The notes below the pieces were generated by a model. That model saw only the letters and a program-made list of their open reading frames with translations. It was not told the DNA's origin and did not search any database. A program made the position numbers and the translations under genes. Below are positions 13,126 through 35,842 of a DNA stretch of 36,215 bases, one piece after another. Source of the DNA: Promethearchaeota archaeon (GTDB lineage Archaea; Asgardarchaeota; Lokiarchaeia; Sigyniarchaeales; SOKP01); assembly GCA_016839765.1 (NCBI GenBank), contig JAEOTP010000039.1, forward strand, positions 1-36,215. Reading direction: 5' to 3'. Positions within the stretch are counted from its first letter, which is position 1, and each line of letters opens with the position of its first letter.

Positions 13126-13126
13126 T

Positions 13127-14077
13127 ATGAGTGAAGATTATAAATGGCATTATGGATTTTTTTTAGGATGTGTTATTCCTAATCGTTATCCTATGATTGA
13201 AGCTTCAATAAGAAGCGTTTTTGATCATCTTGGAGCGGAAATGTTAGATTTACCCGGTGCATCATGTTGTCCTGCTCCAGGTGTATTTAGAGCATTTCAT
13301 ATTCCAACTTGGCTTGTAATTGCTGCAAGAAACATTTCTATTGCCGAGGAAATTGGAGTAAATCCCATTACAGGTTGTAATGGTTGCTATGGGACTCTCA
13401 GGGACGCGTGGTATGAACTTGAGCATGAATATGAGTTAAAAAAAGAAGTTAATGAATATCTTGCTAAAATTGGACGTACATATAAGGGTAATCTCGAACC
13501 CAAACATGTTGTTCAAGCTTTATACCTTGATATGGGATTAGATCATTTAAAAGATTACATTAAATTTACCTTTTCAGATTTAAAAATAGCCGTGCATTAT
13601 GGTTGTCATATTGTAAAACCTAGTGATAAAAGACCGTGGGATGGCGAATATGAAGTTCCAAGATTTCTTGATGAAATTGTTGAATTAACTGGAGCTAAAA
13701 GCGTTGATTATAAAGATAAATATATGTGTTGTGGAGCTGGTGGAGCAGTCAGAACTGCTGTTAAAGAAGTCGCAGCTGATTTTACACGTGAAAAGTTGAT
13801 GAATATTAGAGAAGTAGGAGCGGATATAATAATAAACTGCTGTCCCTTCTGCCATCTTCAATTAGATCTAGGTCAAGTTGAGGTAAACAACTTCTACGCT
13901 GATATAATTGGGGAACCGTTTAATATTCCTGTAATATATATAACTCAACTTTTAGGAGTGGCATTTGGAATGGATCCTAATCTATTAGGTTTGATCAAGA
14001 ATCATGAATTAACAGGTGTATCACCGTTCATATCAATAGATCCTTTCCTAAACATAATAAAAAATCAATTAATTTAA
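13127..14077 (+). CDS. hdrB: Heterodisulfide reductase subunit B (HdrB)
   Basis: This 316-residue protein has two CCG domains, which hold the non-cubane iron-sulfur clusters that reduce the disulfide substrate. First domain: C15, C47-C48, C84 and C87 (GCNGC). Second domain: C160, C201-C202-G and C238-C239-x2-C242 (NCCPFC). Both cysteine sets are complete, so a catalytic HdrB is expected. In methanogens the substrate is CoM-S-S-CoB. Here no methanogenesis gene is near, so the acceptor is open. The ATG at 13127 has an ideal GGAGG ribosome site. Confidence 0.95.
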   Translation: MSEDYKWHYGFFLGCVIPNRYPMIEASIRSVFDHLGAEMLDLPGASCCPAPGVFRAFHIPTWLVIAARNISIAEEIGVNPITGCNGCYGTLRDAWYELEHEYELKKEVNEYLAKIGRTYKGNLEPKHVVQALYLDMGLDHLKDYIKFTFSDLKIAVHYGCHIVKPSDKRPWDGEYEVPRFLDEIVELTGAKSVDYKDKYMCCGAGGAVRTAVKEVAADFTREKLMNIREVGADIIINCCPFCHLQLDLGQVEVNNFYADIIGEPFNIPVIYITQLLGVAFGMDPNLLGLIKNHELTGVSPFISIDPFLNIIKNQLI

Positions 14078-14092
14078 TGGGTAAGGTAAAAA

Positions 14093-16114
14093 ATGACTGA
14101 AGCTAAAAAAGAATTGGAAAAAGTAAAAAAAGAAATTGTAGTCACTGGTAATGAAAAACCTCAAGTTGGTGTATACGTATGTGATTGTGGTATCAATATA
14201 GCTGGTGTTGTTTCAGTTCCAGATTTAGTAAAATATGCTGAAACATTACCTGATGTAGCTGTTGCTCGTGAATATAAATTCTTTTGTTCCGATACAGGTC
14301 AAAACATAATTAAAGAAGATATCCAGTCAGGTTTAATTAACAGGGTTGTTGTGGCAGCATGTTCTCCAAGAATGCATGAACCTACATTTAGATTAGTTTG
14401 TAAAGAAGCAGGATTGAATCAATTTTTATTTGAGCAAGCAAATATTAGAGAGCACTCTACATGGGTTCATATGAAGGACCCAGAAGGAGCATTTGAGGCT
14501 GCAAAAGATCTCATTAAAATGTCTGTCGCAAAAGCTAGAGAATTAAAGCCTTTAGAGGTTAAAACTGTTAGTATTGAACCTGCTTGTTTAATTATTGGTG
14601 GTGGAATTGCGGGAATGAATTCTGCCTTAGATTTAGCCACAGAAGGGTATAAAGTTTATTTAGTTGAAAGAACACCCACTATCGGGGGCCATATGGCGCA
14701 ATTAGATAAAACATTTCCTACAATGGATTGTAGTGCCTGTATATTAACTCCAAGAATGGTAGATGTAGCGCGGAACGAGAATATCGAGTTATTGACTTAT
14801 TCAGAAGTAGTAGAAGTAACCGGTTATGTGGGAAATTTTGAAGCAACAATCATGAAAAAACCTCATTATGTTGATCAAGAAGCATGTACAGGTTGCGGAG
14901 TATGTGTAGATTATTGTCCCGTGGTAACTGGCAATGAATTTGATCTTGGTTTAGCTACAAGAAAAGCAATATATATTCCATTTCCTCAGGCAGTTCCTGG
15001 AAAATACACAATAGATATGGATAATTGTATTAAATGTGGGATTTGTGCTAGAGAAGATGTTTGTGAACCGGATGCTATTAGGTATGATGAGGAACCAGAA
15101 TATATGAAAGTAAAGGTAGGAACTATAATCATTGCAACTGGCTGGGATTTATATGATCCTACAGGATTAAAACAATATGGCTATGGTAGATATCCTAATG
15201 TTATTGATGGACTTCAAATGGAACGTTTATTAAGTTCTACAGGTCCTTTAGATGGTAAGCCCACACGTCCATCAGATCTTAAAGCGCCCCATAGTATTGC
15301 CTTTCTGCAATGTGTGGGGAGCAGAAATTTTAGAGAAGGGGGTAATCAGTATTGTTCTAGGGTTTGTTGCATGTACGCTACGAAGCAAGCCAGACAATAT
15401 AAAGAGAAACATCCCGACGCTGATGTATATATATTCTATATGGATGTAAGAGCTTTTGGAAAAGGTTATGAAGAATTTTACGAATCAGCAGGCAAAAACT
15501 ATGGAATTAATTATATAAGAGGAAGAATTGCAGAGGTAAGTGAAGGTGAAGATCATAGTATTATTATCAGAGCCGAAGATACATTACTTCAAGAACCAAT
15601 GGAATTAAAAGTCGATATGTTTGTTCTTTCATGTGGTTTAGAGTCTAGAAGTGATGCAGGAGAGGTTGCCTCTTTAGTCAGAGTTCAAAGATCCTCTGAT
15701 GGTTTTTTTATGGAAGCTCATCCTAAATTAAGACCTGTAGATACTTTGACTGAAGGAATTTTCATAGCGGGTGTTGCGCAAGGTCCAAAAGACATTCCTG
15801 ATTCTGTTGCTCAAGCTAAAGGAGCAGCATCAAGCGCCGCGACATTAATGGCTAAAGGAGAAGTTGAAATGGAACCATTTTTTGCAGTAGTTCGTCCAGA
15901 CCGTTGTATTGGATGTGGTATGTGTGTTGAAAATTGTACTTATGGTGCTATAGAACTAATTGATGATAGACATTTTGGTAAAATTGCATCAATTAACCAA
16001 GCATTATGTAAAGGTTGTGGTGCTTGTTCCGGTAACTGTAGATGCTCTGCAATAGATATTTTCGGCTTCACTGGAGAACAAATATTTTCAATCATAATGG
16101 GGGGTGAACTTTAA
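14093..16114 (+). CDS. hdrA: Heterodisulfide reductase subunit A (HdrA), FAD and multi-[4Fe-4S]
   Basis: This 673-residue protein has the standard HdrA length. The N-terminal HdrA domain holds DCGINIAG and CSPRMHEP. The FAD Rossmann loop GGGIAG is near 169, followed by the TFPTMDCSACILTPRMV block at ~207-223. Four ferredoxin motifs are seen: C265/268/271/275, C312/315/318/324, C605/608/611/615 and C639/642/645/649. HdrA holds the bifurcating flavin, splitting electrons between ferredoxin and HdrB/C. It follows hdrB by 15 nt with a GGTAAGG-type site. The stop TAA at 16112 overlaps the presumed start of mvhD. Confidence 0.95.
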   Translation: MTEAKKELEKVKKEIVVTGNEKPQVGVYVCDCGINIAGVVSVPDLVKYAETLPDVAVAREYKFFCSDTGQNIIKEDIQSGLINRVVVAACSPRMHEPTFRLVCKEAGLNQFLFEQANIREHSTWVHMKDPEGAFEAAKDLIKMSVAKARELKPLEVKTVSIEPACLIIGGGIAGMNSALDLATEGYKVYLVERTPTIGGHMAQLDKTFPTMDCSACILTPRMVDVARNENIELLTYSEVVEVTGYVGNFEATIMKKPHYVDQEACTGCGVCVDYCPVVTGNEFDLGLATRKAIYIPFPQAVPGKYTIDMDNCIKCGICAREDVCEPDAIRYDEEPEYMKVKVGTIIIATGWDLYDPTGLKQYGYGRYPNVIDGLQMERLLSSTGPLDGKPTRPSDLKAPHSIAFLQCVGSRNFREGGNQYCSRVCCMYATKQARQYKEKHPDADVYIFYMDVRAFGKGYEEFYESAGKNYGINYIRGRIAEVSEGEDHSIIIRAEDTLLQEPMELKVDMFVLSCGLESRSDAGEVASLVRVQRSSDGFFMEAHPKLRPVDTLTEGIFIAGVAQGPKDIPDSVAQAKGAASSAATLMAKGEVEMEPFFAVVRPDRCIGCGMCVENCTYGAIELIDDRHFGKIASINQALCKGCGACSGNCRCSAIDIFGFTGEQIFSIIMGGEL

Positions 16115-16572
16115 TCAGCAAAATACAAACTCAGATAGAGAAATCAGAAAATAAAAAAGAATGGGAACCAAAAATAATTGCATTTTTATGTAATTGGTGC
16201 TCTTATGCCGGTGCTGATCTGGCAGGTGTGAGTCGAATTCAATATCCCTCAAATATTAGAATAGTAAGAGTTCCATGTTCGGGAAGAGTGAATCCTTTTT
16301 TTATAATTAAAAGTTTATTAAGAGGATGGGATGGCGTTGTTGTTTCGGGATGCCATCCAGGTGATTGCCATTATGTTAGTGGAAATTTAGTTGCAAGAAG
16401 ACGGTTCGCCATCTTACAAGATTTATTAAACCTTTTCGGGATAGAGCCCGATCGGGTTACATTCATGTGGTCTTCTGCATCTGAAGGCGATCGATTTGCG
16501 AATTTAATTAAAAAAGTAACAAAGAATATAAAAAGACTTGGACCAAATAAAAAATTTGAATCAACGTGGTGA
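16114..16572 (+). CDS. mvhD: MvhD/FlxD-type electron-transfer subunit, apparent ATC start
   Basis: This [2Fe-2S]-type MvhD domain protein links a dehydrogenase module to HdrA. The conserved core begins WEPKIIAFLCNWCSYAGADL and continues with PCSG and HPGDCHY. The frame opens at 16108, after a TGA at 16105, and has no ATG, GTG or TTG before the conserved CNWC motif. The first GTG (16228) would delete those cysteines. ATC at 16114 overlaps the hdrA stop in a TAATC arrangement that looks like a TAATG stop-start with one changed base. It is preceded by GGGGGGTGA, 6 nt away, close to ideal Shine-Dalgarno. I therefore place the start there, giving 152 residues. Product call strong; start inferred. 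Confidence 0.85.
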   Translation: MSKIQTQIEKSENKKEWEPKIIAFLCNWCSYAGADLAGVSRIQYPSNIRIVRVPCSGRVNPFFIIKSLLRGWDGVVVSGCHPGDCHYVSGNLVARRRFAILQDLLNLFGIEPDRVTFMWSSASEGDRFANLIKKVTKNIKRLGPNKKFESTW

Positions 16573-16577
16573 ATTTA

Positions 16578-17588
16578 ATGGTTATCGAAGATCAAAATAA
16601 AGATATTGAACAATTAATAAGAGATTTAGCTAGAAAGCTACTTAAAGAAAAAGAAGTTGATGTTATTTTGGGATATACAAAAGGTACCATTCCCTTAACT
16701 TCATTACCAATTGTAATAGATAAAGTTGAGGATGTAGATAAATTAATTTGGAATAATTTATGTTATATAAATTTAGCTAAATATTTGGTCCCTCGAATAC
16801 CGACACTTATGAATGAAGAAGGTCAAAAATTAAAAGTTGGAATCGTATCAAAAGGTTGTATCGGTAGGGCTCTAATTCATTTATCGGTTGAGCATCAAAT
16901 CGATCTTGAAAATATAAAAATAATTGGAATTCCCTGTAATGGAATTATAAATAGGAAAAAAATTGAAGATGAAATCGGAGAAAGGGAAATCTTTGAGATC
17001 TCAGTATCCGGTGATAATATCATAATAAAAGGAGAGGATCTCGAACAAACATTACCTTTTAACGAATATTTGAATGATTTGTGTAAAACATGCCAAGTTA
17101 AATCACCGCCAAGTATAGAAAATATATGCGTTGGTGAATGTCTAGAAAACCCTGTTATTGAGGATGATTTCTCAGATATGACAGAGTTTGATTCAAAAAC
17201 TCCTGAAGAAAAATGGGAATACATAAAAAATCTTTTAGATACTTGTACTCGATGTTATGCTTGCAGAGAAGTATGTCCTATGTGCTATTGTAATTTGTGT
17301 TTTGTCGATCAAAATCAACCCGTTTGGTTTGGAAAAACAACAGCTTATTCTGATATCTTCACATTTCATTTAATTCGAGCAATGCATATGGCGGGACGAT
17401 GTGTAGGTTGTGGTGCTTGTAGTAGTGTCTGTCCTATGGGAATTGATTTAAATTTAATAAATAGATCTTTAGAAAAAATTGCAAAAGAAAGGTTTAATTT
17501 TACATCTGGCATTGATCCAGAAGCCTTACCTCCTATGATGGCTTTTGATATGGAGGATGATCAAGAATTTATGATGGAGGAAGATTAA
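16578..17588 (+). CDS. flxC: FlxC-like iron-sulfur protein of the Hdr-associated dehydrogenase
   Basis: This 336-residue protein starts at ATG 16578, chosen over the in-frame GTG at 16566 because GGTGA at 16568-16572 is at ideal distance from the ATG and overlaps the mvhD stop. The N-terminal half resembles the FrhB/FdhB-type flavin/iron-sulfur domain (VSKGCIGRALIHL, then IIGIPCNGI). The C-terminal half has two ferredoxin motifs, C223/226/229/233 with extra cysteines just after (MCYCNLC), and C275/278/281/285 followed by PMG. By position between mvhD and flxB it fits FlxC. It passes electrons from FlxA/B toward MvhD and HdrA. The acidic C-terminus ends in MMEED. Confidence 0.8.
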   Translation: MVIEDQNKDIEQLIRDLARKLLKEKEVDVILGYTKGTIPLTSLPIVIDKVEDVDKLIWNNLCYINLAKYLVPRIPTLMNEEGQKLKVGIVSKGCIGRALIHLSVEHQIDLENIKIIGIPCNGIINRKKIEDEIGEREIFEISVSGDNIIIKGEDLEQTLPFNEYLNDLCKTCQVKSPPSIENICVGECLENPVIEDDFSDMTEFDSKTPEEKWEYIKNLLDTCTRCYACREVCPMCYCNLCFVDQNQPVWFGKTTAYSDIFTFHLIRAMHMAGRCVGCGACSSVCPMGIDLNLINRSLEKIAKERFNFTSGIDPEALPPMMAFDMEDDQEFMMEED

Positions 17589-17604
17589 AAAGGTGATTTA
17601 AAAA

Positions 17605-18663
17605 ATGGAACAAAAAGTATTAAAAAAAGATCAAATCGTAAAATTATATAATGATTTAGTTAAAGACTATAATTTTTATGCACCGATTAAAGAAAAGAGA
17701 AACATAATTTTTGGAAAAATCACAAATCCAGAAGATATAGTGCTAAATTATTATAATTCTAAGGTTCCACCTAAAGAAATATTATTTCCACAGACGGATA
17801 TTCTTTTTGAATATAAGATTAATGGTAAAGAGATTGAAATTGAAGAACCTAAAAAGTTAGATGAGAAAAATATTATTTTTGGAATAAGACCCTGCGACGC
17901 TCATAGTTTTATTTTATTAATGAATTTTTTCTCTCAAGGGGAATTCAAAGATGAAATAATTATGAATAGAAGAGAAAATACAACTCTGATAGGAATTGGT
18001 TGTAATACTCCAAAAAGCACTTGTTTCTGTACATCAATTGAAGGAAATCCATTTCAAAAGGAGGATATGGATATTTTTTTAGTTGATTTACAAGATAAAT
18101 ATCTCGTTGAGGGAATAAGTGATAAAGGTAAAAAGTTAATTAAAAGACTCTCGTGGCTTACTGATGCAACAAACGCAGATATAGAAATGGCTCAAGAATT
18201 AGGAAAAAAGGCAGAGGAAGCAATTGTAACAAAAATAGATTTAAAGAATATTGATAAAATTTTGGATCCAAATTTTGATCATCAAATATGGAAAGAAGTC
18301 AGTGAAATTTGTATAGGATGTGGAACATGTTCCTTTCTATGCCCAACATGTACTTGTTTTGATGTAATTGATGAAAACGTTCCAAATGAGAATCGTGGAA
18401 GAAGAGTTAGAATATGGGACACCTGTCAATCTTGCCTCTATACATTACATACTAGCGGTCATAATCCACGTAATAGCTGTATAGAAAGGGTTAGAAATAG
18501 GATATTACATAAATTTTGTTATTATCCCGAGAATTATGGTATGTTGGGATGTGTTGGATGTGGTCGATGTGTTCAATTATGCCCTGCTAATAATGATCTT
18601 AGAGCAATAATTGAAAAAATCAATAAAATTGAACAAAAAAAGGAGGAGAAAGTTACTGTCTAA
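17605..18663 (+). CDS. flxB: FlxB-like / sulfhydrogenase-beta-type iron-sulfur protein
   Basis: This 352-residue protein belongs to the HydB/AsrA family, whose members carry electrons between an NAD(P)H-flavin subunit and a partner enzyme. Marks are GIRPCDAHSF near 93-102, GIGCNTPKSTCFCTS near 130-144, and two ferredoxin motifs: C236/239/242/246 followed by PTCTCFD, and C316/319/322/326 followed by PAN. A CQSCLYTLHTSGHNPR block lies between them, as in the family. It sits 16 nt after flxC with an AAGGTGAT ribosome site, and its last codons overlap the start of flxA. Cytosolic. Confidence 0.88.
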   Translation: MEQKVLKKDQIVKLYNDLVKDYNFYAPIKEKRNIIFGKITNPEDIVLNYYNSKVPPKEILFPQTDILFEYKINGKEIEIEEPKKLDEKNIIFGIRPCDAHSFILLMNFFSQGEFKDEIIMNRRENTTLIGIGCNTPKSTCFCTSIEGNPFQKEDMDIFLVDLQDKYLVEGISDKGKKLIKRLSWLTDATNADIEMAQELGKKAEEAIVTKIDLKNIDKILDPNFDHQIWKEVSEICIGCGTCSFLCPTCTCFDVIDENVPNENRGRRVRIWDTCQSCLYTLHTSGHNPRNSCIERVRNRILHKFCYYPENYGMLGCVGCGRCVQLCPANNDLRAIIEKINKIEQKKEEKVTV

Positions 18664-19495
18664 TCCGTATATCCCGATGCTTACAACAGTCAAAGATATT
18701 ATTTCTGAGAATAAAGTAAATGATATAAAAACACTTGAATTAGTTTTCAAGAATGAGGAGGATTATAAAAGTTTTCAATATATACCAGGACAATTTGCGG
18801 AGATAAGTCTTATTGGAAAAGGAGAATGTCCTATAGGGATAGCCTCCTCTCCCACAGAAGTAGGTTCTATTATGTTTACTATAAAAAAGATGGGAACAGT
18901 GACTTCAGGGTTTCATAATTGTGAGGTGGGGGATACGGTTGGTTTAAGAGGACCTTGTGGAAATGGATGGCCAATAGAAGAAATGAAAGGTAAAAATATT
19001 GTTGTAATAGGAGGTGGTTTTGCATTTTCAACACTAAGATCACTAATTATTTATATATTAGACGATAAGCATCGCAAAGACTATAAAAATATAACTGTTG
19101 TTTATGGAAATCGTGATTCAGGAGAGGTACTATATCAGCCAGACTTAGAAGATTGGAAAAAAAGGGATGATATTAATGTGATACTAACTATTGATCGCGA
19201 AGAAGAGGGATGGACTGATAAAGTAGGATTTGTTGCTCCTGTTGTTAAGGAAGTCGCTCCATCTCCCGAGAATGCTATTGCTGTTGTATGTGGTCCTCCC
19301 ATAATGATTAAAACAACTATTGCCGTACTTGAAGAATTAAAATTTAAAGATGAGCAAATTTTAAATTCTTTAGAAATGAGGATGAAATGCGGAATTGGTA
19401 AATGTGGAAGATGTAATATTGGTAATAAATTTGTATGTGTTGATGGCCCAGTTTTTTCTCTGGCAGAACTTAAAGAAATGCCAAGTGAATATTAA
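18656..19495 (+). CDS. flxA: FlxA-like FAD/NAD(P)H-binding oxidoreductase, apparent CTG start
   Basis: This is the NAD(P)H-oxidising subunit, of the ferredoxin-NADP-reductase / sulfhydrogenase-gamma type. The FAD-binding IPGQFAEISLIG is followed by GIASSP, the NAD loop VVIGGGFAFSTL, VVCGPPIMIK and a C-terminal [2Fe-2S]-type set MKCGIGKCGRCNIG...FVCVDGP. Start choice: the conserved N-terminus of such proteins is (M)SNPYIPM. Here that is CTG-TCT-AAT-CCG at 18656, 9 nt after AGGAGG (18641-18646) and overlapping the flxB stop by 8 nt. An ATG at 18611 lies upstream of the ribosome site and gives a Lys-rich tail. The next ATG (18677) is 30 nt away from the site. I choose CTG, giving 279 residues. 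Convergent with the giant HdrA gene. Confidence 0.88.
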   Translation: MSNPYIPMLTTVKDIISENKVNDIKTLELVFKNEEDYKSFQYIPGQFAEISLIGKGECPIGIASSPTEVGSIMFTIKKMGTVTSGFHNCEVGDTVGLRGPCGNGWPIEEMKGKNIVVIGGGFAFSTLRSLIIYILDDKHRKDYKNITVVYGNRDSGEVLYQPDLEDWKKRDDINVILTIDREEEGWTDKVGFVAPVVKEVAPSPENAIAVVCGPPIMIKTTIAVLEELKFKDEQILNSLEMRMKCGIGKCGRCNIGNKFVCVDGPVFSLAELKEMPSEY

Positions 19496-19546
19496 ATTAA
19501 AAGAATATAATATTCCTTTATTTAAATTTTAAGTATTTATTTTAGC

Positions 19547-22500
19547 CTAATTAGTTCCAATTTTTGCTTTACTCACTTTACCTGGGATTTTCGATTCTCC
19601 AACCTTTTTGATTATTTCTGTAAATTCTGATATGCGTTCTGAGAATTGTTTCCCCTCACTCGCGGAAATTTGATGGATTTGAATTCTTTCTTCTTCAATT
19701 CCAATCATCTTTAATAATTTCTGAAGGTTCTCCAATCGAAGATATGCATTTTCATTCCCACTTATATAGTGACAATCTCCAAGGTGACACCCTGCTATAA
19801 ATACACCATCCGCTCCATCCAAAAATGCCTTTAAAATATAACTCTTAGACATACCTCCTGAGCACATGACTCTAATAATTCTTATATTTGGAGGATACTG
19901 ATATCTACTTACGCCTGCTAGATCGGCACCGGCGTATGAGCACCAATTACAGAGAAATGCGACTATTCTTGGTTCCCAAACCTTTTCTTCCGATTTAACT
20001 GCTTCAGCAATCATTGGTTTTATCTGATCATTTCCAAAATGACTCATAGATATAGCAGAAACCGGACATTCTGCGAAACAAGTTCCACATCCTTTACAAA
20101 GAGCCTTAATTACGTGAGCTTTCTTTATATCATTATTATATAAACCCATTTGTTTAGTAGTCTCGACTAACTCAATGGCGTTATAGGGGCAAATTTCGGC
20201 ACATTGACCACAACCTATACATTTTTCTTCATTAACATTGGAAGTTACACCCTCAGTCTCTAAAAATTCTTTTGATAATATTGTCATTGCTCTAGCTGCT
20301 GCAGACTTCGCTTGAGCTATACTTTCAATTATATTTGCCGGTGCTCGTGCAGTTCCACATAAAAAGATTCCATCTGTTGCGAAATCAGAAGGTCTCAACT
20401 TAACATGAGCTTCTAAGAAGAAATTATCCTCATTAAGAGGGACTTTAAGTAATTTAGCTAACTCACTATTTCCCTCAGGAGCTACAATTCCTGCACTTAA
20501 AACAACCAAATCCGTGTTAAGTTTAATTTCTCCTATATCTGACTTGTTTAGTATAAGTTGTAAGATATTATCTTTTGCAATAACTTTGGGTGGTTGTGTT
20601 TCATCAAATCTAATAAAGAGAATGCCCTTAGCTCTAGCGAGATTATAGTATTTCTCCTTAAAACCATAAGTCCTAATATCACGAAATAAAATGGTAATAT
20701 TAATATCTGGGTTAATCTCTTTTGCTTTTAACGCATTCTTTATTGCTTCTGCACAGCACATCCTACTGCAATAAGGATTTTCTTCGTTTCTAGAACCTAT
20801 ACATTGGATCATAACAATTGATTTCAGTTCCTTTATTTTTTTTTCCTCCATAAAAAGAATTTCTTCGAGTTTTGATTGAGTTATAATTCTCTCATCGTAA
20901 TTAAATAAGAACTCGTTATCTTTAGGAGTATATTCCTCTGTTCCTGTCGCTACAATAATAATTCCATGATTCAAATTCTCTGTTTCATTTTCTCTTTCAG
21001 AAATTATTTCTGTGGTAAAATTACCTAGATAGCCTGTTACGGAATTAATGTTAGCTTCGAGAAAAACATTAATGAATTCATGATTATTGACTCTTTCTAC
21101 TAAATTACTAATTAATTTTTGGACATCATTGTTTTCTAAAGTTTGAAAAATTTTATTTGAGAAACCACCCAACCTATTGCTTTTTTCAACTAAATATGTT
21201 GTATACCCCTGATCTGCTAAATTTAAAGCTGCTGTCATTCCAGCTACACCGCCTCCAATAACCAATCCTTTATTAATTACTTCTACTCTTTGCTCTTGTA
21301 AAGGAACTAAATTTCTTGCTTTTGCGACAGACATTCTAACCAAATCTTTAGCTTTCTGTGTAGCTTCTTCTGGTTCATGCATATGTACCCAGGAACATTG
21401 ATCCCTAATATTTGCTAAATCAAAAAGATATTTATTTAAACCTGCTTCTCTTATTGTTGCTTGGAATAACGGTTCATGCGTTCTAGGCGTGCAAGAAGCA
21501 ACGATTACTCTATTTAGGTTATGTTTCTTTATCTTTTCTTTAATAATCGTTTGGGTATCAGCTGAGCAAGTATATAAGTTTCTTTCAGCATATACTACAT
21601 CTGGTAATTTGCTTGCATATTCAACTACTTCAGGAACATCAACAACACCTCCGATATTAATTCCGCAATGGCAAACAAAAACTCCAATTCGAGGTGGTTC
21701 TCCACTAACATCGATTTCATCATAATATTTCTTTTCAGGAACTAAAGTATTTCTAACATCAGATAGAAGAACATTTACGGCTCCTGCGGTTGCACTAGCT
21801 TCAATAACAGTTTCTGGAATATCCTTGGGTTCTTTAAACGTTCCACATACATAAACACCTGGTCTTGAAGTCTCAATTGGATTAAAATTAGTTGTTTTAC
21901 AGAAGTCATATTCATTTAATCCAACATTTAATTTTTTTGCTAATGCTATAGCGTTTGGATTAGGTTGTAATCCTACAGATAAAATAACCATGTTAAAAAT
22001 TTCTTCAACAATTTCTCCTTCATCAGTTTCGTACCTAATTTTCAAGTCATTGGATTCGGCAATTTCTTTAATACTAGAAATTCTACTTCTAATATACCTT
22101 ATGCCATAATCACTTTTAGCTCGTTCAATGTATTTATCAAAATCTTTTCCGTATGCTCTTATATCCATGCTAAAAATGGTAAGTTCAAGAGTGTTTAAAT
22201 GTTCTTTAGCTATAACAGCTTCTTTTGTAGTATACATACAACACACTGAAGAGCAGTATTCATGATTTATTTTTTTATCTCGAGAACCAACGCATTGCAA
22301 AAATGCTATTTTTTTCGGATGTGTGTTATCCGAAGGACGAATTACTTCTCCCTTAAATGGGCCAGAAGCATTGAGAATACGTTCGAAACCTATACTTGAT
22401 ATAACATTTGGATATTCACCATATCCATAAATATTTCCTATTTTTGGTTCATATTCATCAGATCCAAGGGCTAATATTACAGCCCCAATATTGATAGAGA

Positions 22501-24493
22501 TTATTTCATCAGCTAAATTATGATCAATTGCGTTTGCTTGGCAAGTTCTCACACATTCGAAGCACTCGCAGCAAGATCCACAATTAAGACAGCGGTTTGC
22601 TTCTTTAATAGAAGAATCTTCATCCATAGTGCTAGCAACTTCATTAAAATTATATATCCGTTCTTCGGGTAAACATATTGAGAACTCACCTCTATCTTGA
22701 CACGCTATATTATCAATGTCTTGAATATCAGCAATAGTAACTACATCCTCTACTTTATAATCAGAGATGGTTTCTTTTAAATCGGAAATTTCTTCTCCTT
22801 TTAGATATTTCTCCATCACTATAGCTGCTTTATTTCCTGTCGCTATTGCTTCTATAGCAGAGGCAGCACCAGTGATGATCTCTCCTCCAGCGAAGACACC
22901 AGGGATATTAGTTTCAAAAGTTGTTTGGTCTGCTTCAATATAACCCCATTTATTAATATTTAATTTCTTCTGAGAAGCAGATTCTATTAATGAACAATCT
23001 GATTCTTGTCCTACTGAAATTATTAAAGTATCGATCTTCATCTTGAATTCAGAACCTTCAATTGCGATAGGTCTTCGCCTTCCAGATTCATCAGGTTTAC
23101 CAAGTTTCATTTGCACGCATTCAATTTCAGAAATCTTAACTCCCTTATCACTGGCATCTTTAGTGGGTACGGTTAAAAATTTAAATTCAATGCCCTCTTC
23201 TCTTGCTCTTTTTATTTCTTCCCTTGAAGCAGGCATTTCTTGTTCAGATCGTCTATAAATAATTATTACTTTTTTTGCACCTAATCTTATGGATGAGCGA
23301 GCAACATCCATTGCAACATCTCCTCCGCCAACTACTCCTATAATTTTATCTTTAAGATTAGGTACATTTCTTGATAAATTTAATTCTCTTAGAAAATCAA
23401 CACCATATAATACATCTTCAATATCTTCACATTGAAAATCCATTTTACGACTATTATGAAGGCCTATAGCTATAAAAATAGCTTTATAACCTTGGTTTTT
23501 TAAATCTTCTAAGGTTAAATCAGAACCTACAGGTGTATTGGTTTTTATTTCAACGCCCAGTTTCTTAATATATTCAATATCTCTTTCTAAGATTTCTGGT
23601 GGCAATCTATAATCAGGGATTCCCAGTCTTAGCATTCCACCCGCAACAGGTTCTTTTTCAAAAATTGTCACGGAATACCCACGTTTTGCAAGGTGATAAG
23701 CAACAGTAAGTCCCGTTGGACCTGAACCAATAATAGCAACTTTTTCTTCCTTTTTATCTTCTAAGAATGTGATTTCTTCTTCAAGATTATCCATAACATA
23801 ATCTGCTACAAATCTTTTTAAGCCACAAATATTAATAGGATCATCTATTTCCGCTCTATTACATTCTAATTCACAAAAATGAGGACAAATTCGTCCTATA
23901 ACAGAGGGAAGGGGACATCTCTCTCTAATTAAGTTCAAGGCTTCTTGATAACTTTTTTTGGAGATTAAAGCAACATATCCTTGGGCATTTACATGAGCAG
24001 GACAAGCATCCACGCAGGGAGGAGTTCCTCGTTTTTCTATTTGTACTTTAAATGGTACCGCCTGAGGGAACTGAAGATATATCGCTTTTCTATTATTCAA
24101 TTTCTGATTAAATTCATCAGGAATTTGAACAGGGCACTCTTGAATGCAATCCCCACAACCCGTACATTTATCTTCATAGATATATCTTGTTCTTTTATTA
24201 ATTGTAGCATTAAAATTACCTGCCTTACCTTCCAGATTTATGATATCTGCGTATGTAATCAATTCAATATTTGGATGTCTATCTACAGCAACGAGTTTTG
24301 GGGCTAAAATACACATAGAACAGTCATTTGTTGGGAAAGTTTTATCTAATTGAGCCATAACTCCTCCAATGGATGGTTCCTTCTCAACAAGATAAACCTT
24401 GAGACCAGCATCTGCTAAATCTAATGCTGCTTGACAACCCCCTATTCCTGCTCCAACAATCATTACAGCCCCAACTTTATTCTTTTCGCTCAA
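19547..24493 (-). CDS. Giant fusion: HdrA with nested NADPH dehydrogenase, second HdrA, and MvhD
   Basis: This 1648-residue chain begins with TTG after GGAGG, 7 nt upstream. Module 1, HdrA-like: FAD loop GAGIGG (14-19), TFPTNDCSMCILAPKLV (52-68), cluster C110/113/116/120. Inserted after FPQAVP (143-148) is a GltD/NfnB-like NADPH module, 155-634: cysteines 160, 164, 203, 207, 211; FAD loop GSGPTG (256-261); NADPH loop VVGGGDVAMD (388-397). HdrA sequence resumes at CLNCGSCCECFECVRTC (635-651) and runs to ~920. Module 2, 935-1410: CHCGINIGG, CTPRTHEP, GGGVAG, without the mid-domain ferredoxin. Then come two ferredoxin motifs (1425-1435, 1466-1476) and an MvhD domain (1505-1635). It likely joins NADPH oxidation to ferredoxin and HdrD reduction in one chain. 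Domain reading is strong; reaction direction is inferred. Confidence 0.92.
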   Translation of the reverse strand: MSEKNKVGAVMIVGAGIGGCQAALDLADAGLKVYLVEKEPSIGGVMAQLDKTFPTNDCSMCILAPKLVAVDRHPNIELITYADIINLEGKAGNFNATINKRTRYIYEDKCTGCGDCIQECPVQIPDEFNQKLNNRKAIYLQFPQAVPFKVQIEKRGTPPCVDACPAHVNAQGYVALISKKSYQEALNLIRERCPLPSVIGRICPHFCELECNRAEIDDPINICGLKRFVADYVMDNLEEEITFLEDKKEEKVAIIGSGPTGLTVAYHLAKRGYSVTIFEKEPVAGGMLRLGIPDYRLPPEILERDIEYIKKLGVEIKTNTPVGSDLTLEDLKNQGYKAIFIAIGLHNSRKMDFQCEDIEDVLYGVDFLRELNLSRNVPNLKDKIIGVVGGGDVAMDVARSSIRLGAKKVIIIYRRSEQEMPASREEIKRAREEGIEFKFLTVPTKDASDKGVKISEIECVQMKLGKPDESGRRRPIAIEGSEFKMKIDTLIISVGQESDCSLIESASQKKLNINKWGYIEADQTTFETNIPGVFAGGEIITGAASAIEAIATGNKAAIVMEKYLKGEEISDLKETISDYKVEDVVTIADIQDIDNIACQDRGEFSICLPEERIYNFNEVASTMDEDSSIKEANRCLNCGSCCECFECVRTCQANAIDHNLADEIISINIGAVILALGSDEYEPKIGNIYGYGEYPNVISSIGFERILNASGPFKGEVIRPSDNTHPKKIAFLQCVGSRDKKINHEYCSSVCCMYTTKEAVIAKEHLNTLELTIFSMDIRAYGKDFDKYIERAKSDYGIRYIRSRISSIKEIAESNDLKIRYETDEGEIVEEIFNMVILSVGLQPNPNAIALAKKLNVGLNEYDFCKTTNFNPIETSRPGVYVCGTFKEPKDIPETVIEASATAGAVNVLLSDVRNTLVPEKKYYDEIDVSGEPPRIGVFVCHCGINIGGVVDVPEVVEYASKLPDVVYAERNLYTCSADTQTIIKEKIKKHNLNRVIVASCTPRTHEPLFQATIREAGLNKYLFDLANIRDQCSWVHMHEPEEATQKAKDLVRMSVAKARNLVPLQEQRVEVINKGLVIGGGVAGMTAALNLADQGYTTYLVEKSNRLGGFSNKIFQTLENNDVQKLISNLVERVNNHEFINVFLEANINSVTGYLGNFTTEIISERENETENLNHGIIIVATGTEEYTPKDNEFLFNYDERIITQSKLEEILFMEEKKIKELKSIVMIQCIGSRNEENPYCSRMCCAEAIKNALKAKEINPDINITILFRDIRTYGFKEKYYNLARAKGILFIRFDETQPPKVIAKDNILQLILNKSDIGEIKLNTDLVVLSAGIVAPEGNSELAKLLKVPLNEDNFFLEAHVKLRPSDFATDGIFLCGTARAPANIIESIAQAKSAAARAMTILSKEFLETEGVTSNVNEEKCIGCGQCAEICPYNAIELVETTKQMGLYNNDIKKAHVIKALCKGCGTCFAECPVSAISMSHFGNDQIKPMIAEAVKSEEKVWEPRIVAFLCNWCSYAGADLAGVSRYQYPPNIRIIRVMCSGGMSKSYILKAFLDGADGVFIAGCHLGDCHYISGNENAYLRLENLQKLLKMIGIEEERIQIHQISASEGKQFSERISEFTEIIKKVGESKIPGKVSKAKIGTN

Positions 24494-27675: not shown

Positions 27676-29751
27676 TTATTTTTCCCAATTAGAGTCTAGA
27701 TATTCAAGAATCTTATCAATTTCATGGCTTGGAGGTTTGCACGTTTTATCGATACAGACATATGCAGTAGCTTTATTATCTTTATCATCAAAGAACTGGA
27801 CAAAATTCGAAAATTTGTCGATATCTGGATTTTCTTGTTCCATTTTTCTTAGTAAAAGTACTTTATTTGGCAAATATTCATTTTCAACTGCTTCTAACAT
27901 ATTTAATGTATCTTTTGAATTTGAATTTCCTGCTATGACTAATGAATAAGTAGGGCCAACAGCAAAATCTGCAGCAACCATAAATTGTGTATATGCTAGT
28001 GGAGATGCTTCTAACTTCTCTGAAAAGACTCTGCTTAATATGTCTGCTTTCTCTTCTAATATATGATCTCCTGTAATATAACTTAGACGTAATAAATTTA
28101 ACATAGAAACTGAATTTCCTGATGGTATAGCTCCATCATATATTTCTTTTTGACGAGTTAAGAGTTCTTCATTAGATTCAGATGTAAAATAGAAACCGCC
28201 TATATGATCATCCCAAAAATGTTTTAATAGAAGTTCATTTAATTCTAATGCAATTTCTAAATACTTATTATTAAATGTTGCTTCAAACATTTCAAGTAAG
28301 CCCCAGATAAAAAAAGCATAATCCGTAAGAAAGCCTTCAATTTCAGCATTTCCCTCCCTGTATCGATGCAATAATATTCCATCTTCCTTTTTTAAATTAT
28401 TTATTATAAAATGAGTAGCGTTTTGCGCAATTTTAAGGTATTTTGGCTCTGAAAAAGCTTTTGCTCCTTTTACTAAAGCAGCAATCATTAATCCATTCCA
28501 ATCGGTTAATATTTTATCATCCTTATGGGGGTGTATTCTTTTCTCACGATATTTAAACAACTCTTGACGAATATTATCAAGCTTAAGATGCTGTTCTTCT
28601 TGTTCGATGTCTTGGATTTGATTTAAGTATAAAATATTTTTACCTGTTTTCCTTCCAGTTGCCTCTTCTAAATAATTGCCGGACTCGGTGATATTATATA
28701 TATTCATAATTAGCTCTACTTCTTTTTGTTCAAGAACTTTTTCAAGTTCGGCCCTTGACCAAACATAAAATTTTCCTTCTTCTCCTTCACTATCCGCATC
28801 CTCAGCAGAATAAAAACCACCTTTGGGAGAGACCATATCACGTATTATATATTCGAAAATTTCTTCGGCTGTTTTTTTATAAATTTTTTTTCTTGTTGCT
28901 TGAAATGCTTCAATATAGGCTATAGCAATTAGAGCTTGATCATATAGCATTTTTTCGAAATGTGGAACAAACCAATTTCTATCTGTAGAATATCTGTGAA
29001 TTCCAAAACCAATATGATCATAGATTCCTCCTTTTCTTATCTCTTGTAAAGTTTTTTCAACCATTTCTAATGCGTGTTGCTCTCCAGTGCGTTTCCAATA
29101 ACGTAGTAAAAACATTAAGTTATGGGGTGTGGGAAATTTAGGTCTATCACTAAATCCTCCTTTTTTAGAATCAAATTGTGATGAAAGTTGATTATATGTT
29201 TTCTTTAAAATTTTCTCATTAAATTTATCTCCAGGAGATTCTTGACTTAAATTTTGAAGAGAAAACGTGATTTTTTCAGCTGATTCTAATAACTCATCCT
29301 TATTATTAATCCATAGAGATTTAACTCTTTTAATTAAGTCTATAAGACCAATTCTTCCAAATTTTGACTCTTTAGGGAAATATGTACCTGCAAAAAAGGG
29401 TTTCTTGTCTGGTGTTAATAGAATTGTTAAGGGCCAACCTCCTGAACCTGTCATCATTTGACATACGGTCATATAGATTTTATCTATATCTGGACGCTCT
29501 TCTCTGTCAACCTTGATCGAAATGAATGTTTCGTTCATTAGATCGGCCACATCCTGGCTTTCAAAGCTTTCATGTGCCATAACATGGCACCAATGGCATG
29601 TTGAGTATCCTATTGATAAAAATATTGGTTTTTTTTCTTTTTTTGCTTTTTGAAAAGCCTCTTCTCCCCAAGGATACCAGTCTACTGGATTATTAACATG
29701 TTGAAGTAAATAGGGACTTTTTTCATTTATTAATTTATTCGATTTAATCAA
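27676..29751 (-). CDS. YyaL/DUF255 thioredoxin-domain protein
   Basis: This 691-residue protein matches the conserved family that includes bacterial YyaL and human SPATA20. The N-terminal thioredoxin-like domain has NPVDWYPWG, a CHWC active-site motif at C52-C55, [15 protein letters not shown] and GGWPLT. The C-terminal ~450 residues have the (alpha/alpha)6 barrel pattern of N-acylglucosamine-2-epimerase and cellobiose-epimerase-like proteins ([33 protein letters not shown]). The true activity is not established. A redox or sugar-related role is usually proposed. It is a full-length single gene with a TTG start preceded by AGGA. Cytosolic. Confidence 0.93.
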
Positions 29752-29896
29752 TTAATCCTTCACCTTGCTAAATAAACAAGAAAATGCATAAATATCAAGA
29801 TAATGCTTATAATTCATTAACTCTTGATTTAAAGAGATTTATTCTGAAAATAAATCTTAAAAAATTTTTAATAAGTTAGAATTTAAACTTAAAAAT

Positions 29897-30451
29897 CTAT
29901 TTATGAGTATCAATTGAAATAAATTCATCTATTTTTTTTCTTTCTGGTCTCTGATGTTCTATGCTTTTTTGCTTATCTAAAAGCAAATTGTTCAACTCTT
30001 TAGAATGTTTCCCAATAATTATTAATGTAATGAGCCTCATCTCTTCTGGAACTCCCAATACTCTTTTTACCGCTTCCTCATTAAATCCTGCAATTGGATG
30101 GGCAACTAAACCTAATTCAGTAGCTCTAAGTATAATAAATCCTGTTGCAATACCAGTATCAAAAAGATAATAATTTCTCTCTCTTATAATGCAATCTAAA
30201 TTTTTATCACTGTAAACTGCTATGATTAGTGAACTTAATTCAACCCACTTGTTTGTTTTTGTTAAAGTGCCATGAATAGATTTTAGCATTTCTTTATCTC
30301 TTACAAAAATGTATCTCCATGGCTGGTTATTAAAACAAGAGGGTGCTAATTGAGCTGATTTTGCTAATTCAGTTATGATCTCATCTGATATTTCTACAGA
30401 TTCAAGAGATCTATAAGCTCTCCTTAAATTAATAGCCTCTTTTACATTCAT
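29897..30451 (-). CDS. Nitroreductase-family FMN protein
   Basis: This 184-residue protein is the normal length for a compact nitroreductase. RRAYRSLE near the N-terminus, LAKSAQLAPSCFNNQPWRYIFV (FMN-binding, ~29-50), and the late DTGIATGFIILRATELGL and PEEMRLITLIIIGK stretches are the family marks. Such enzymes use NAD(P)H to reduce nitro-, quinone- or flavin-type substrates. Natural substrate unknown. It lies between the peroxiredoxin and the YyaL gene on the same strand, which may form a small redox-stress group, though spacers are 69 and 145 nt. The start is ATG with AGGA 4-5 nt before it. Confidence 0.88.
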   Translation of the reverse strand: MNVKEAINLRRAYRSLESVEISDEIITELAKSAQLAPSCFNNQPWRYIFVRDKEMLKSIHGTLTKTNKWVELSSLIIAVYSDKNLDCIIRERNYYLFDTGIATGFIILRATELGLVAHPIAGFNEEAVKRVLGVPEEMRLITLIIIGKHSKELNNLLLDKQKSIEHQRPERKKIDEFISIDTHK

Positions 30452-30520
30452 TTTTCCTACAATAACTTTTATTATATATGCATAAAAAAATTGGAATTTA
30501 AAAAATATTATAATTAAAAT

Positions 30521-31012
30521 TTAAGCTGTAGCTAATAATCCTTCCAAGATATTTTTTACCTCTTCAGGATGACCTTTAACACTAACTTTTGGCCAAGTGT
30601 GTGCGATTTTACCTTCAGGATCTATTAAAAATGTGCTTCTAATTACGCCCACATACGTTTTTCCTCTGAATTTTTTTAAACCCCAAGCTCCATACTTTTT
30701 AAGAATATCTTTATTTTCATCACTGAGTAATGTTACTTTCAGATTTTTATTTGCAATAAAATTAGCATGAGATTTTGGGCTATCAGGGCTAATTCCTATT
30801 ACTTCTGCATCAAGCTCTTGTAATTCAGGCAAAATATTTGTGAAACCTATAGCTTCGGTTGTGCATCCTGGAGTATTGTCTTTAGGATAGAAGTATATTA
30901 TGCGGTATTTACCTTCAAAATCTTTCAGACACACTTTGTTATTTTCTTTGTCTGGAAGACAAAATTCAGGAGCTAAATCACCAATTTTCAATTCTACTTT
31001 TTTATCTGCCAT
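30521..31012 (-). CDS. Peroxiredoxin of the BCP/PrxQ type
   Basis: This 163-residue thiol peroxidase of the AhpC/TSA fold has the peroxidatic Cys at C50 in the TPGCTTEA motif and the usual PDSPKSHANF block. It reduces hydroperoxides. The resolving Cys found five residues later in most PrxQ proteins is Ile here (TTEAIGF). The only other cysteines are at about 18 and 28. It must therefore act as a 1-Cys enzyme or use an unusual resolver. It is first in the group that runs to the nitroreductase. Start ATG; fits an anaerobe with some oxygen defence. Confidence 0.93.
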   Translation of the reverse strand: MADKKVELKIGDLAPEFCLPDKENNKVCLKDFEGKYRIIYFYPKDNTPGCTTEAIGFTNILPELQELDAEVIGISPDSPKSHANFIANKNLKVTLLSDENKDILKKYGAWGLKKFRGKTYVGVIRSTFLIDPEGKIAHTWPKVSVKGHPEEVKNILEGLLATA

Positions 31013-33046: not shown

Positions 33047-34534
33047 TTATGGATCATTTCTAAATGGATGTCGTGCACTTTCTGCGTTCTCGATACCATC
33101 ATCTACAGAGGGTAAACCTTCCATTGCTTTTCGAATCGCATTGCGAGTTGCTTTATAATTATTAATAAATATTCTTTTTCTTGCGCTAGCACTTGGATGC
33201 ACAAACACATTTACGATTATCACAATATCATCTGCTAATTCTTTAGGAAGAATTCCATCTTCAACACATTGCATTACTGCCTTCGCTATTGCTGCTTGAG
33301 CAGGTCCATATGTTAAACTGGCATGCCGAAGTGATATTGGACGAACTGTAGGAATCATAATTGTAGGTGGTTTTACTTGCATATTAGGTTCAAGTATGAC
33401 TTGAAGTCCTTCCCGTCCTTCTTCTGGATTTGTTAAAGCTTGAGCATATGCATTTCCCACAGGACCATCTTTCCTACCAATTAGAAGATCAATATGTGCA
33501 AGTTCAACACGATTACCTACAAGCGATTCCCCTACTTTTAAATCAAAATCTGTGATTTTTTCTGGTGTAATTCCAACAGCATAGAATCGGCTTGTAAGTG
33601 GCTTTTCTCCAAATTCAAACTTTAATTCTGTCTTTTGAATTAAACCTAACTTTTCAAGCTCAACTCGTAACTCATCTTTTATTTCATAAGAAAGCGTATC
33701 ACCTAAAACAATTGGTTGTCGGGTTTTACCTACTGGAACTTTCATCATATTTAAACAAGATTTAACGCCTAGTGCTCCTGAATTTATTAAAAGTCTTGCT
33801 AATTTTTGAACTCGCTTTTGAAGTATCTGTGCTTCTTCTAAACGATTATTTTTTACATGTTCATATATTTCTAGCCAAATTTTAGGGAATACATTTGCAG
33901 AACCTAGAATGCATCCAGCGGCACCTCCCGCTAAGGCACCCAAGACATTCTCATCCCATCCAATCATGACTGAAATTTTATCACTAACTTTTTCTAATAA
34001 GGCAGAAAAATATTTATAATCTCCACTAGAATCTTTTATAGCTACAATATTTTCGATATCTACCAGATCTTCAACCACTGTCCATGGTAGCTCTACTCCA
34101 GTACAGACTGGAATATTATATAGCACAATAGGAATTTCTGTTTTTTCTGCTATTGTAAAATAGTGATCGTAAAGACCTTTAGCTTTAGGTTTTAAATAAT
34201 AAGGAGTAACAATTAATACAGCATCCGCTCCAATATCTGTTGCTGCTTTAGTTGCATCGACTACTAATTTAGTGCCAGTTTCTCCTGTACCTGCAATAAC
34301 AGGAACCCTGCCATTAGTTTCATCTACAACGATCTCTATTACTTTTAATCTTTCTTCAAAAGTCATATTAACAAATTCTCCGGTTGTTCCAGAAGGCACT
34401 AAACCTGTCACCCCTTGTTCAATTAGATGATTAACTAAATTCCTCAACATATCCTCATTAATTGACTCATCTTTATTGAAAGGTGTAACCATAGCTGGCA
34501 TAACTCCAGTTGGACGAAAATCAAACTTTCCCAT
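33047..34534 (-). CDS. DapA-family aldolase fused to formaldehyde-activating enzyme (Fae)
   Basis: This is a 495-residue fusion. Residues ~5-300 are a DapA/N-acetylneuraminate-lyase TIM barrel: GTTGE (49-53), Tyr139 in YNIP and the Schiff-base Lys167 in AIKDSSGD. The Arg that marks true dihydrodipicolinate synthase (YNxPxRT) is Cys144 here (YNIPVCTG), so another 2-oxoacid aldolase is likelier. Residues ~315-495 are a whole Fae domain: GESLVG, AHIDLLIG with catalytic-type His347, GPVGNAYAQAL, PTVRPISLRHASLTYGPAQ, and EGLPSVDD...RHPF. Fae joins formaldehyde to tetrahydromethanopterin, giving methylene-H4MPT. The fusion suggests that the barrel releases or uses formaldehyde, for example pyruvate + formaldehyde from 4-hydroxy-2-oxobutanoate. 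Domain call strong; reaction inferred. Start ATG. Confidence 0.93.
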   Translation of the reverse strand: MGKFDFRPTGVMPAMVTPFNKDESINEDMLRNLVNHLIEQGVTGLVPSGTTGEFVNMTFEERLKVIEIVVDETNGRVPVIAGTGETGTKLVVDATKAATDIGADAVLIVTPYYLKPKAKGLYDHYFTIAEKTEIPIVLYNIPVCTGVELPWTVVEDLVDIENIVAIKDSSGDYKYFSALLEKVSDKISVMIGWDENVLGALAGGAAGCILGSANVFPKIWLEIYEHVKNNRLEEAQILQKRVQKLARLLINSGALGVKSCLNMMKVPVGKTRQPIVLGDTLSYEIKDELRVELEKLGLIQKTELKFEFGEKPLTSRFYAVGITPEKITDFDLKVGESLVGNRVELAHIDLLIGRKDGPVGNAYAQALTNPEEGREGLQVILEPNMQVKPPTIMIPTVRPISLRHASLTYGPAQAAIAKAVMQCVEDGILPKELADDIVIIVNVFVHPSASARKRIFINNYKATRNAIRKAMEGLPSVDDGIENAESARHPFRNDP

Positions 34535-34555: not shown

Positions 34556-35842
34556 TTATATTGATTTATGCAAATTATTTGCTGCAATAAAACTTAACCC
34601 TTTTTCAGTAAGAGCTTTAGCTGTGTGATTAACTGCTCTGTATCTATCAAGATGGTTTATACGTAGAAAATCCCATAATCCTGCTTTCATTAGTTCTTCT
34701 TTAGACAAAAAATATTCAAGAATATCTGTAGGGTGTTCTCTACTTTCCTCAACCTCTATATCTCCACCCTCGTGTTTAGCACTTATATTTTTAACTTTTT
34801 CTGCTAATTCTAATAATTCATCCCTCCGATCATAAGGTTGTCTTACTATACTCTTCCAAGTCTCGGTTATATGATGTTCTAATCTAACCACATCTTCAAA
34901 ATCAAAATTTTTACGAATATATGATGATAATTCAATAGTTTCATTATTAACCGAATTAGCAAGATTAAAGCCTATGAGAGGACTTGAGCCATCTTCGCGA
35001 GCAAACAATTTTGCAGTTAATAAAGTCCAAAGACAAGAATAGGGATTATCATTGCCCATATAAACACTAATCTTGAATTCGTTATTAATTCCTAATTTAT
35101 AAATGAAATATCCAAGTAAAACAGTGCCAGGATTTACGTTAAGCACTTGTTTTATTCCATAATTAGTATAGTAATAGAGAAATTCATCGATCCATTTTAA
35201 AGCAAAATCATTAGGTTGCCCCACACCACCAAAATATCCGGTTATGGTTTCAGGTCCACCTAAATGCACATTTACAGGAAGTCCATCTGGTCCTGGAGCA
35301 GTTCCTTTTGTATCTAATGTCTCAACCCACGTAGAGCCAATAATTTGCATTGCTGCAGCCATGGCAATTAAATCTCCATCTTTCTCCTGTTCCTTCATAT
35401 TTCTAACCCGAATAATCCTTCCAGGAACTAATTGTTGAGTATCAATGGCATCTTTAACAATTGCAATAAGAAATGGAAAATATTGACAGGCAGATAACTC
35501 TAAAGTAACTGCAAAATCCTCTCTGAATTTCATTTCTGATGCTTTCTCTCCAAGAATTTTCTTTCGATATTCAGGTATACTGATAAAAGCATTAATATCT
35601 CTCTGATTAATTAGCCATTCAAGATCTTTTATATAATTTGGATTTACTTTTTCTAGTTTTTGCATTAAATTTTCGACTTTACCAGCCTCTTCAGCTTTTC
35701 TATTGATTTCTTCTATACCACCATATTTATCTAGCAATTCTAAAAGATTAGTAATTAATGGATTACTCTCATCTAAAAGAAAAGCATTAACTGCCTTTAA
35801 GGCCTTATCTGAAATTTCAAGCTTTTTCCTCAAATCTTTCAT
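34556..35842 (-). CDS. Unrecognised 428-residue cytosolic protein, operon partner of DapA-Fae
   Basis: No family was recognised. It lacks signal peptide, membrane helices and nucleotide-binding loops. The first ~110 residues are helical and charged. The middle part looks like an enzyme barrel or lobed domain with conserved-looking glycine and polar blocks: NVHLGGPETITGYFGGVGQPND near 190-211, LNVNPGTVLLGYF, YMGNDNPYSCLW, GFNLANSVN, and RLEHHITETWKSIVRQP. A His/Asp/Glu-rich segment that could bind metal follows (KHEGGDIEVEESREHP). It is first in the unit; the DapA-Fae ATG comes 21 nt after its stop. A ribosome site AAAGGTAAT precedes the ATG. Genomic context makes an enzyme of C1 or aldehyde chemistry most likely. 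Confidence 0.75.
   Translation of the reverse strand: MKDLRKKLEISDKALKAVNAFLLDESNPLITNLLELLDKYGGIEEINRKAEEAGKVENLMQKLEKVNPNYIKDLEWLINQRDINAFISIPEYRKKILGEKASEMKFREDFAVTLELSACQYFPFLIAIVKDAIDTQQLVPGRIIRVRNMKEQEKDGDLIAMAAAMQIIGSTWVETLDTKGTAPGPDGLPVNVHLGGPETITGYFGGVGQPNDFALKWIDEFLYYYTNYGIKQVLNVNPGTVLLGYFIYKLGINNEFKISVYMGNDNPYSCLWTLLTAKLFAREDGSSPLIGFNLANSVNNETIELSSYIRKNFDFEDVVRLEHHITETWKSIVRQPYDRRDELLELAEKVKNISAKHEGGDIEVEESREHPTDILEYFLSKEELMKAGLWDFLRINHLDRYRAVNHTAKALTEKGLSFIAANNLHKSI

Follow-up and report, generated by a model that had tools for sequence, protein, structure and literature searches.

Background

In archaea, an aldolase that releases or fixes formaldehyde is found on one polypeptide with the formaldehyde-activating enzyme (Fae) in the Fae-Hps proteins, which are linked to tetrahydromethanopterin (H4MPT), a C1 carrier of the methanogen type. 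Fae itself forms homo-oligomers in which the active site lies between subunits. In dihydrodipicolinate synthase (DHDPS, DapA), Arg138 (E. coli numbering) binds the carboxylate of aspartate semialdehyde. Formation of 4-hydroxy-2-oxobutanoate (HOB) from pyruvate and formaldehyde is a class II pyruvate aldolase activity that has been used in engineered pathways (PMC8879981, PMC7918591), and HOB is a non-native metabolite in E. coli, where it was used in engineered methylotrophy (PMC8879981). The synthetic homoserine cycle uses RhmA/YfaU of E. coli as HOB aldolases; these are promiscuous class II metal enzymes without a link to H4MPT.

Here we describe a gene in which a DapA-type aldolase is fused to Fae. 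Fae-Hps is a clear precedent in kind, being an aldolase joined to Fae. However, the domain order is inverted (Fae is N-terminal in Fae-Hps and C-terminal in the fusion) and the aldolase is of the Schiff-base DHDPS type instead of Hps, which belongs to another superfamily, so that sugar phosphate chemistry is not expected and the predicted metabolic role is different. With RhmA/YfaU the fusion would share the proposed reaction, pyruvate + formaldehyde <-> HOB, but it belongs to class I and has an enzyme for the C1 carrier built in.

Results and discussion

Identification of the fusion gene

The window, the 36,215-bp stretch of DNA that was analysed, is one whole contig of a 3.3 Mb genome. The fusion gene, FUS, is located on the minus strand (33047-34534), starts with ATG and encodes a protein of 495 aa, as indicated by the ORF and by profile matches; the plus strand of this interval is full of stops, leaving a single ORF. 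The DHDPS-superfamily class I aldolase domain (33656-34513, aa 8-293) was recognised by profile, alignment and fold match, and the Pfam profile PF00701 was covered nearly full-length (E 8.7e-77). It is followed by a linker (33536-33655, aa 294-333), predicted with low confidence at aa 302-329, and by the Fae domain (33062-33535, aa 334-491), which likewise matched nearly the full length of its profile (PF08714, E 4.9e-56). The initial annotation, which gave no strand but described two complete domains in one frame, was thus confirmed, and so were the two catalytic residues that it named: in the alignments Lys167 (codon 34034-34036) is the Schiff-base lysine and His347 (codon 33494-33496, aligned to 1y5y) the conserved histidine of Fae. 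An assembly or binning artefact, such as a false join around position 33,600, would be conceivable with data that consist of MAGs only, but it can practically be dismissed, as dozens of assemblies, made independently of one another and covering different sites and families, contain the full-length protein intact.

Downstream of FUS lies a gene for an FMN oxidoreductase of the old yellow enzyme family (PF00724; 31903-33021, minus strand). This gene is probably not part of the FUS unit, since in most relatives it is not kept beside FUS.

Distribution of the fusion

A search of 228 Asgard genomes for the same two-domain order, as suggested in the initial annotation, gave matches at E<=1e-60 in 104 genomes, mostly end to end. 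These belong to nine families (f1, f2, f8, f11, f12, f20, f21, f25 and f27; the f-numbers are working family labels within this genome set), with identities down to about 40-55%, and many Lokiarchaeia assemblies contain the full-length fusion at 72-97% identity. In a tree of the DapA half, all fusion aldolases (27 rows) were on one side of a single branch with a support of 100/100, and the stand-alone DapA proteins were on the other side. The wide spread, together with the single-clade aldolase half, shows that the fusion is old and under selection and is not an assembly join.

No fusion was found in viral contigs. The two plasmid matches with 88% coverage were rejected; they extend from a dihydrodipicolinate synthase gene into the adjoining aminotransferase gene, with an identity of 25%, and do not represent a fusion. 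The initial annotation knew of no described DapA-type Fae fusion, and our literature search, which was incomplete, found no description of one either; the architecture may already be annotated in databases.

The aldolase half is distinct from the lysine enzyme

Lys167, Tyr139 (codon 34118-34120) and Thr51 were invariant in an alignment of 31 diverse fusions. In contrast, every fusion examined lacked the arginine at the DHDPS Arg138 position and had Cys, Val or Leu instead; in FUS this is Cys144 (codon 34103-34105). Accordingly, the motif reads YNIPVCT, YNIPQCT, YNIPQVT or YQLPALT in fusions as opposed to YNVPxRT in DHDPS. The GTTGE loop reads GTTGEF or GSTGEF in the fusions, against GTTGES in DHDPS, and the stand-alone dapA products of the same organisms show GTTGE[SAC] and YN[VI]xxRT. 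On contig C40 the window genome has a separate, canonical dapA that immediately precedes dapB, and lysA-like (diaminopimelate-decarboxylase-like) and dapF-like genes are nearby; dapA and dapB were confirmed, the other two were recognised by eye. The fusion is therefore not needed for lysine.

The NCBIfam model TIGR00674 (dapA) scored 247 bits on FUS, above its cut-off of 206, which would be expected if the protein were a regular DHDPS and its Fae domain an accessory that may be inactive. We consider this highly improbable: the Arg138 position is replaced, the dapA beside dapB scores 339 with the same model, and the tandem copies described below keep complementary Fae motifs. The TIGR00674 model simply does not separate the fusion subgroup from DapA. 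On sequence grounds, the fusion is not the lysine DHDPS; it retains the fold and the Schiff-base lysine and tyrosine of that enzyme but forms its own clade, lies outside the lysine cluster and carries Fae. Its N-terminal half is best read as a pyruvate-type aldolase of class I (Schiff-base) that has ceased to be a DHDPS. A role as a replacement of PanB in ketopantoate formation was also considered and rejected as unneeded, the genome having a normal PanB.

The predicted structure of FUS (pLDDT 81) agrees with the DHDPS fold, its N-terminal domain giving a TM(target) of about 0.95 against DHDPS structures. DHDPS enzymes were also the closest solved structures in the fold search, including that of M. 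jannaschii (2yxg, 40% identity over the domain). A path between Lys167 and His347, which the initial annotation suggested looking for, cannot be shown by this model, because it is a monomer and both domain families act as oligomers.

The Fae half and its tandem copies

The Fae half passed the cut-off of the NCBIfam model TIGR03126 (188 bits against 118) and aligned end to end with M. extorquens Fae (1y5y/1y60; E 2.8e-32 against 1y5y), His347 coinciding with the histidine of the conserved AHIDL motif; the GPAQ and HPF motifs are conserved as well. The Fae-Hps model (NF009833/PRK13307) reached only 152 bits against 274 and matched over Fae only, no Hps domain being present.

In f8 and f12, two fusion genes are present in tandem, separated by a few bases. 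In all six tandem pairs examined (L080, L081, L086, L088, L095 and L096) the two Fae domains have decayed in a complementary manner. EPNxxVRP (or VKP) and YGPVQ are kept in the upstream copy, which has lost AHIDL, with its histidine, and HPF; in the five f8 pairs it has lost VFVHP too. The downstream copy has kept AHxDL, VFVHP and SARHPF and has lost the EPN and GPAQ segments. The lysine and tyrosine of the aldolase are kept in both copies. As the active site of Fae lies between subunits, such complementary loss is what would be expected if two proteins share one composite site, and it argues that the Fae half, which appears to be under selection to work, is probably active. The pairs thus offer a testable case of a homo-oligomer that has turned into an obligate heteromer.

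Mch (methenyl-H4MPT cyclohydrolase) occurred in each of the 7 fusion genomes tested and in none of the 5 tested genomes that contain c1 (see below) but lack the fusion. The window genome also encodes a standard Fae-Hps fusion (G000:C51, L001), so the capture of formaldehyde for the pentose route is already covered. As judged from domain and gene content, the coupling of the fusion to C1 metabolism is well supported. As a single gene combines a pyruvate-type aldolase with Fae, C1 units are probably moved directly between an organic acid and the central C1 pathway in Lokiarchaeia and other Asgard archaea.

The partner gene c1 and its possible substitute c31

Immediately upstream of FUS, with a gap of 21 nt, lies c1 (34556-35842, minus strand), which encodes a 428-aa protein of no named family. 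Adjacent c1-FUS pairs were found in f1, f2 and f20; in all 45 the two genes share a strand and are -41 to +28 nt apart. The c1 gene is present in 126 of the 228 Asgard genomes, and its product is 63-72% identical across distant Asgard families (window c1; loci L143-L161 and L226). No match was obtained in Pfam, NCBIfam or PDB sequences. The predicted structure is TIM-barrel-like with moderate confidence (pLDDT 72.5) and the fold search gave mostly TIM-barrel matches, at E > 0.03, so that a TIM barrel is the probable fold. Apparent in-frame stops in c1 of f2 genomes were discarded; they look like end-of-gene effects, given that the c1 ORFs in these genomes measure 418-421 aa.

In f14, f15 and f18, families without the fusion, the genes after c1 encode an aminotransferase of class I, a homoserine dehydrogenase (over the cut-off of NF004912) and an AOR-family protein. 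Two f2 genomes likewise have homoserine dehydrogenase and/or AOR genes near c1. In f8, c1 is located away from the fusion, beside an ECF-transporter S component and near threonine synthase; a pair resembling the ECF and threonine synthase genes is present in the window genome too. Threonine synthase genes near c1 were located at L144:5715-7193 and L155:5647-7152, and the L144 copy carries a C-terminal PadR-like regulator domain (Pfam).

The surroundings of c1 also bear on the substrate of the aldolase. In G042, c1 adjoins a very divergent DapA-like protein without Fae. This would suit an aldolase half that cleaves another C1-carrying or longer 2-oxo acid (e.g. branched or hydroxylated), with Fae acting in detoxification and the link between c1 and homoserine being incidental. 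The substrates of the DHDPS superfamily are indeed diverse, and the NanA, KdgD, KDG aldolase and HpaI-like models of NCBIfam all matched FUS below their cut-offs. Nevertheless, different families repeatedly show c1 near genes for aminotransferase, homoserine dehydrogenase and threonine synthase, which makes this explanation unlikely.

A bacterial relative of c1 with 51% identity was found on a Polaromonas plasmid, with a dapA-like gene and a TRAP-transporter cluster in its vicinity. Because the DapA-like protein encoded there retains the arginine, it is no precise analogue of the fusion.

In f11, f12, f21 and f25, the gene next to the fusion is not c1 but c31, which encodes a U32-like protein. 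In two f27 genomes (L153 and L162), c1 and c31 fill the same slot between conserved neighbours, which suggests displacement by an unrelated or remote substitute, and because of this they may be functional substitutes for each other. A profile comparison of c1 and c31 found no relationship. No clear pathway emerged from the genes around c31 relatives in bacteria.

Proposed function

Genes for aminotransferase, homoserine dehydrogenase, threonine synthase, DapA-type aldolase and Fae recur together, which makes homoserine/HOB their likely meeting point. We tentatively favour, at a little less than even confidence, a bifunctional C1-transfer enzyme in which an HOB aldolase is coupled to H4MPT and works in the catabolic direction. 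The N-terminal half would catalyse HOB <-> pyruvate + HCHO and the C-terminal half HCHO + H4MPT <-> methylene-H4MPT. With both halves joined, the C1 unit would move between a 4-hydroxy-2-oxo acid, most likely HOB, and methylene-H4MPT, and formaldehyde would be kept low. The favoured route would run from homoserine or another source of HOB, via HOB, to pyruvate and methylene-H4MPT, and c1 would act on some compound at this homoserine/HOB node. HOB as the substrate, the direction, the channelling and the role of c1 are inferred. Catabolism is favoured because of the AOR genes beside c1 and the TRAP-transporter cluster in the bacterium. Organisms without H4MPT could instead oxidise homoserine to aspartate semialdehyde and aspartate by means of homoserine dehydrogenase and AOR.

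Against HOB it must be said that the DapA family acts on many aldehydes, formaldehyde not being singled out by sequence alone, and that the link between c1 and homoserine rests on neighbourhood, c1 in f8 not being beside the fusion. Nor can the direction be read from sequence, and the homoserine kinase result given below speaks against this reading too. The link between 2-oxoacid and C1 metabolism that had been proposed for this gene holds in part: the two-domain fusion is real, it is not DHDPS proper, it co-occurs with the H4MPT gene Mch, its Fae appears to be under selection and the neighbours of c1 point to homoserine/HOB chemistry; the reaction assigned to the aldolase, its direction and a direct transfer between the two active sites stay tentative.

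In the reverse, biosynthetic direction, Fae would supply HCHO from methylene-H4MPT, the aldolase would add it to pyruvate to give HOB, and an aminotransferase would convert HOB to homoserine. Such a route, resembling the synthetic homoserine cycle that was constructed in E. coli, would be a bypass of homoserine dehydrogenase. Segments of the path from pyruvate and HCHO via HOB and homoserine to threonine function in engineered E. coli (PMC8879981). A homoserine dehydrogenase (PF00742) was detected in 20 of the 104 fusion genomes and in 81 of the 124 others, i.e. it was absent from 84 and 43, respectively (Fisher p about 1.5e-12, uncorrected for ancestry). This anticorrelation is confounded by ancestry; within f1 the difference was not significant (15/41 with and 15/26 without the fusion, p=0.13). 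The rarity of homoserine dehydrogenase in fusion genomes fits a catabolic route as well as a biosynthetic bypass, and 20 genomes hold both the fusion and the dehydrogenase, which speaks against the bypass.

Threonine synthase (thrC-like) was over cut-off in 18 of 28 genomes. Several fusion genomes (in f8, f11, f21 and f25, and G028) have it without homoserine dehydrogenase, and in f8 it lies near c1, all of which would suit biosynthesis. On the other hand, canonical homoserine kinase (thrB) was over cut-off in none of the 28 genomes, TIGR00191 giving only weak matches that were uninformative. In addition, the threonine synthase-like gene of the window genome is just under cut-off, threonine auxotrophy is conceivable, and the AOR genes at c1 loci and the bacterial TRAP-transporter cluster look catabolic. 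We regard the biosynthetic direction as a possible, if somewhat unlikely, alternative to the catabolic HOB aldolase.

A wider proposal is that Asgard archaea have a natural counterpart of the synthetic homoserine cycle. The fused HOB aldolase-Fae would replace homoserine dehydrogenase, the C1 unit of methylene-H4MPT would be added to or taken from pyruvate, c1 or c31 would be a new pathway enzyme, and in one lineage Fae would be heteromeric, its site split over two fusion proteins. Taken as a whole this is unlikely. More generally, a widespread and dedicated enzyme that unites a pyruvate-type aldolase with Fae would connect the metabolism of 2-oxo acids and amino acids naturally with the Wood-Ljungdahl C1 pool of archaea, in the closest archaeal relatives of eukaryotes, and it would provide synthetic biology with a coupled low-formaldehyde catalyst.

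Other genes in the window

Genes for a peroxiredoxin, a nitroreductase and a DUF255 thioredoxin-domain protein are located at 27676-31012, and these recur just past the fusion in many Lokiarchaeia loci. The window further contains an aldehyde ferredoxin oxidoreductase gene (AFOR_N + AFOR_C) at 1033-2889. A heterodisulfide-reductase-like electron-transfer cluster spans 12523-24493 and includes a protein of 1648 aa with several FAD/NAD-binding and Fe-S regions and a C-terminal FlpD domain.
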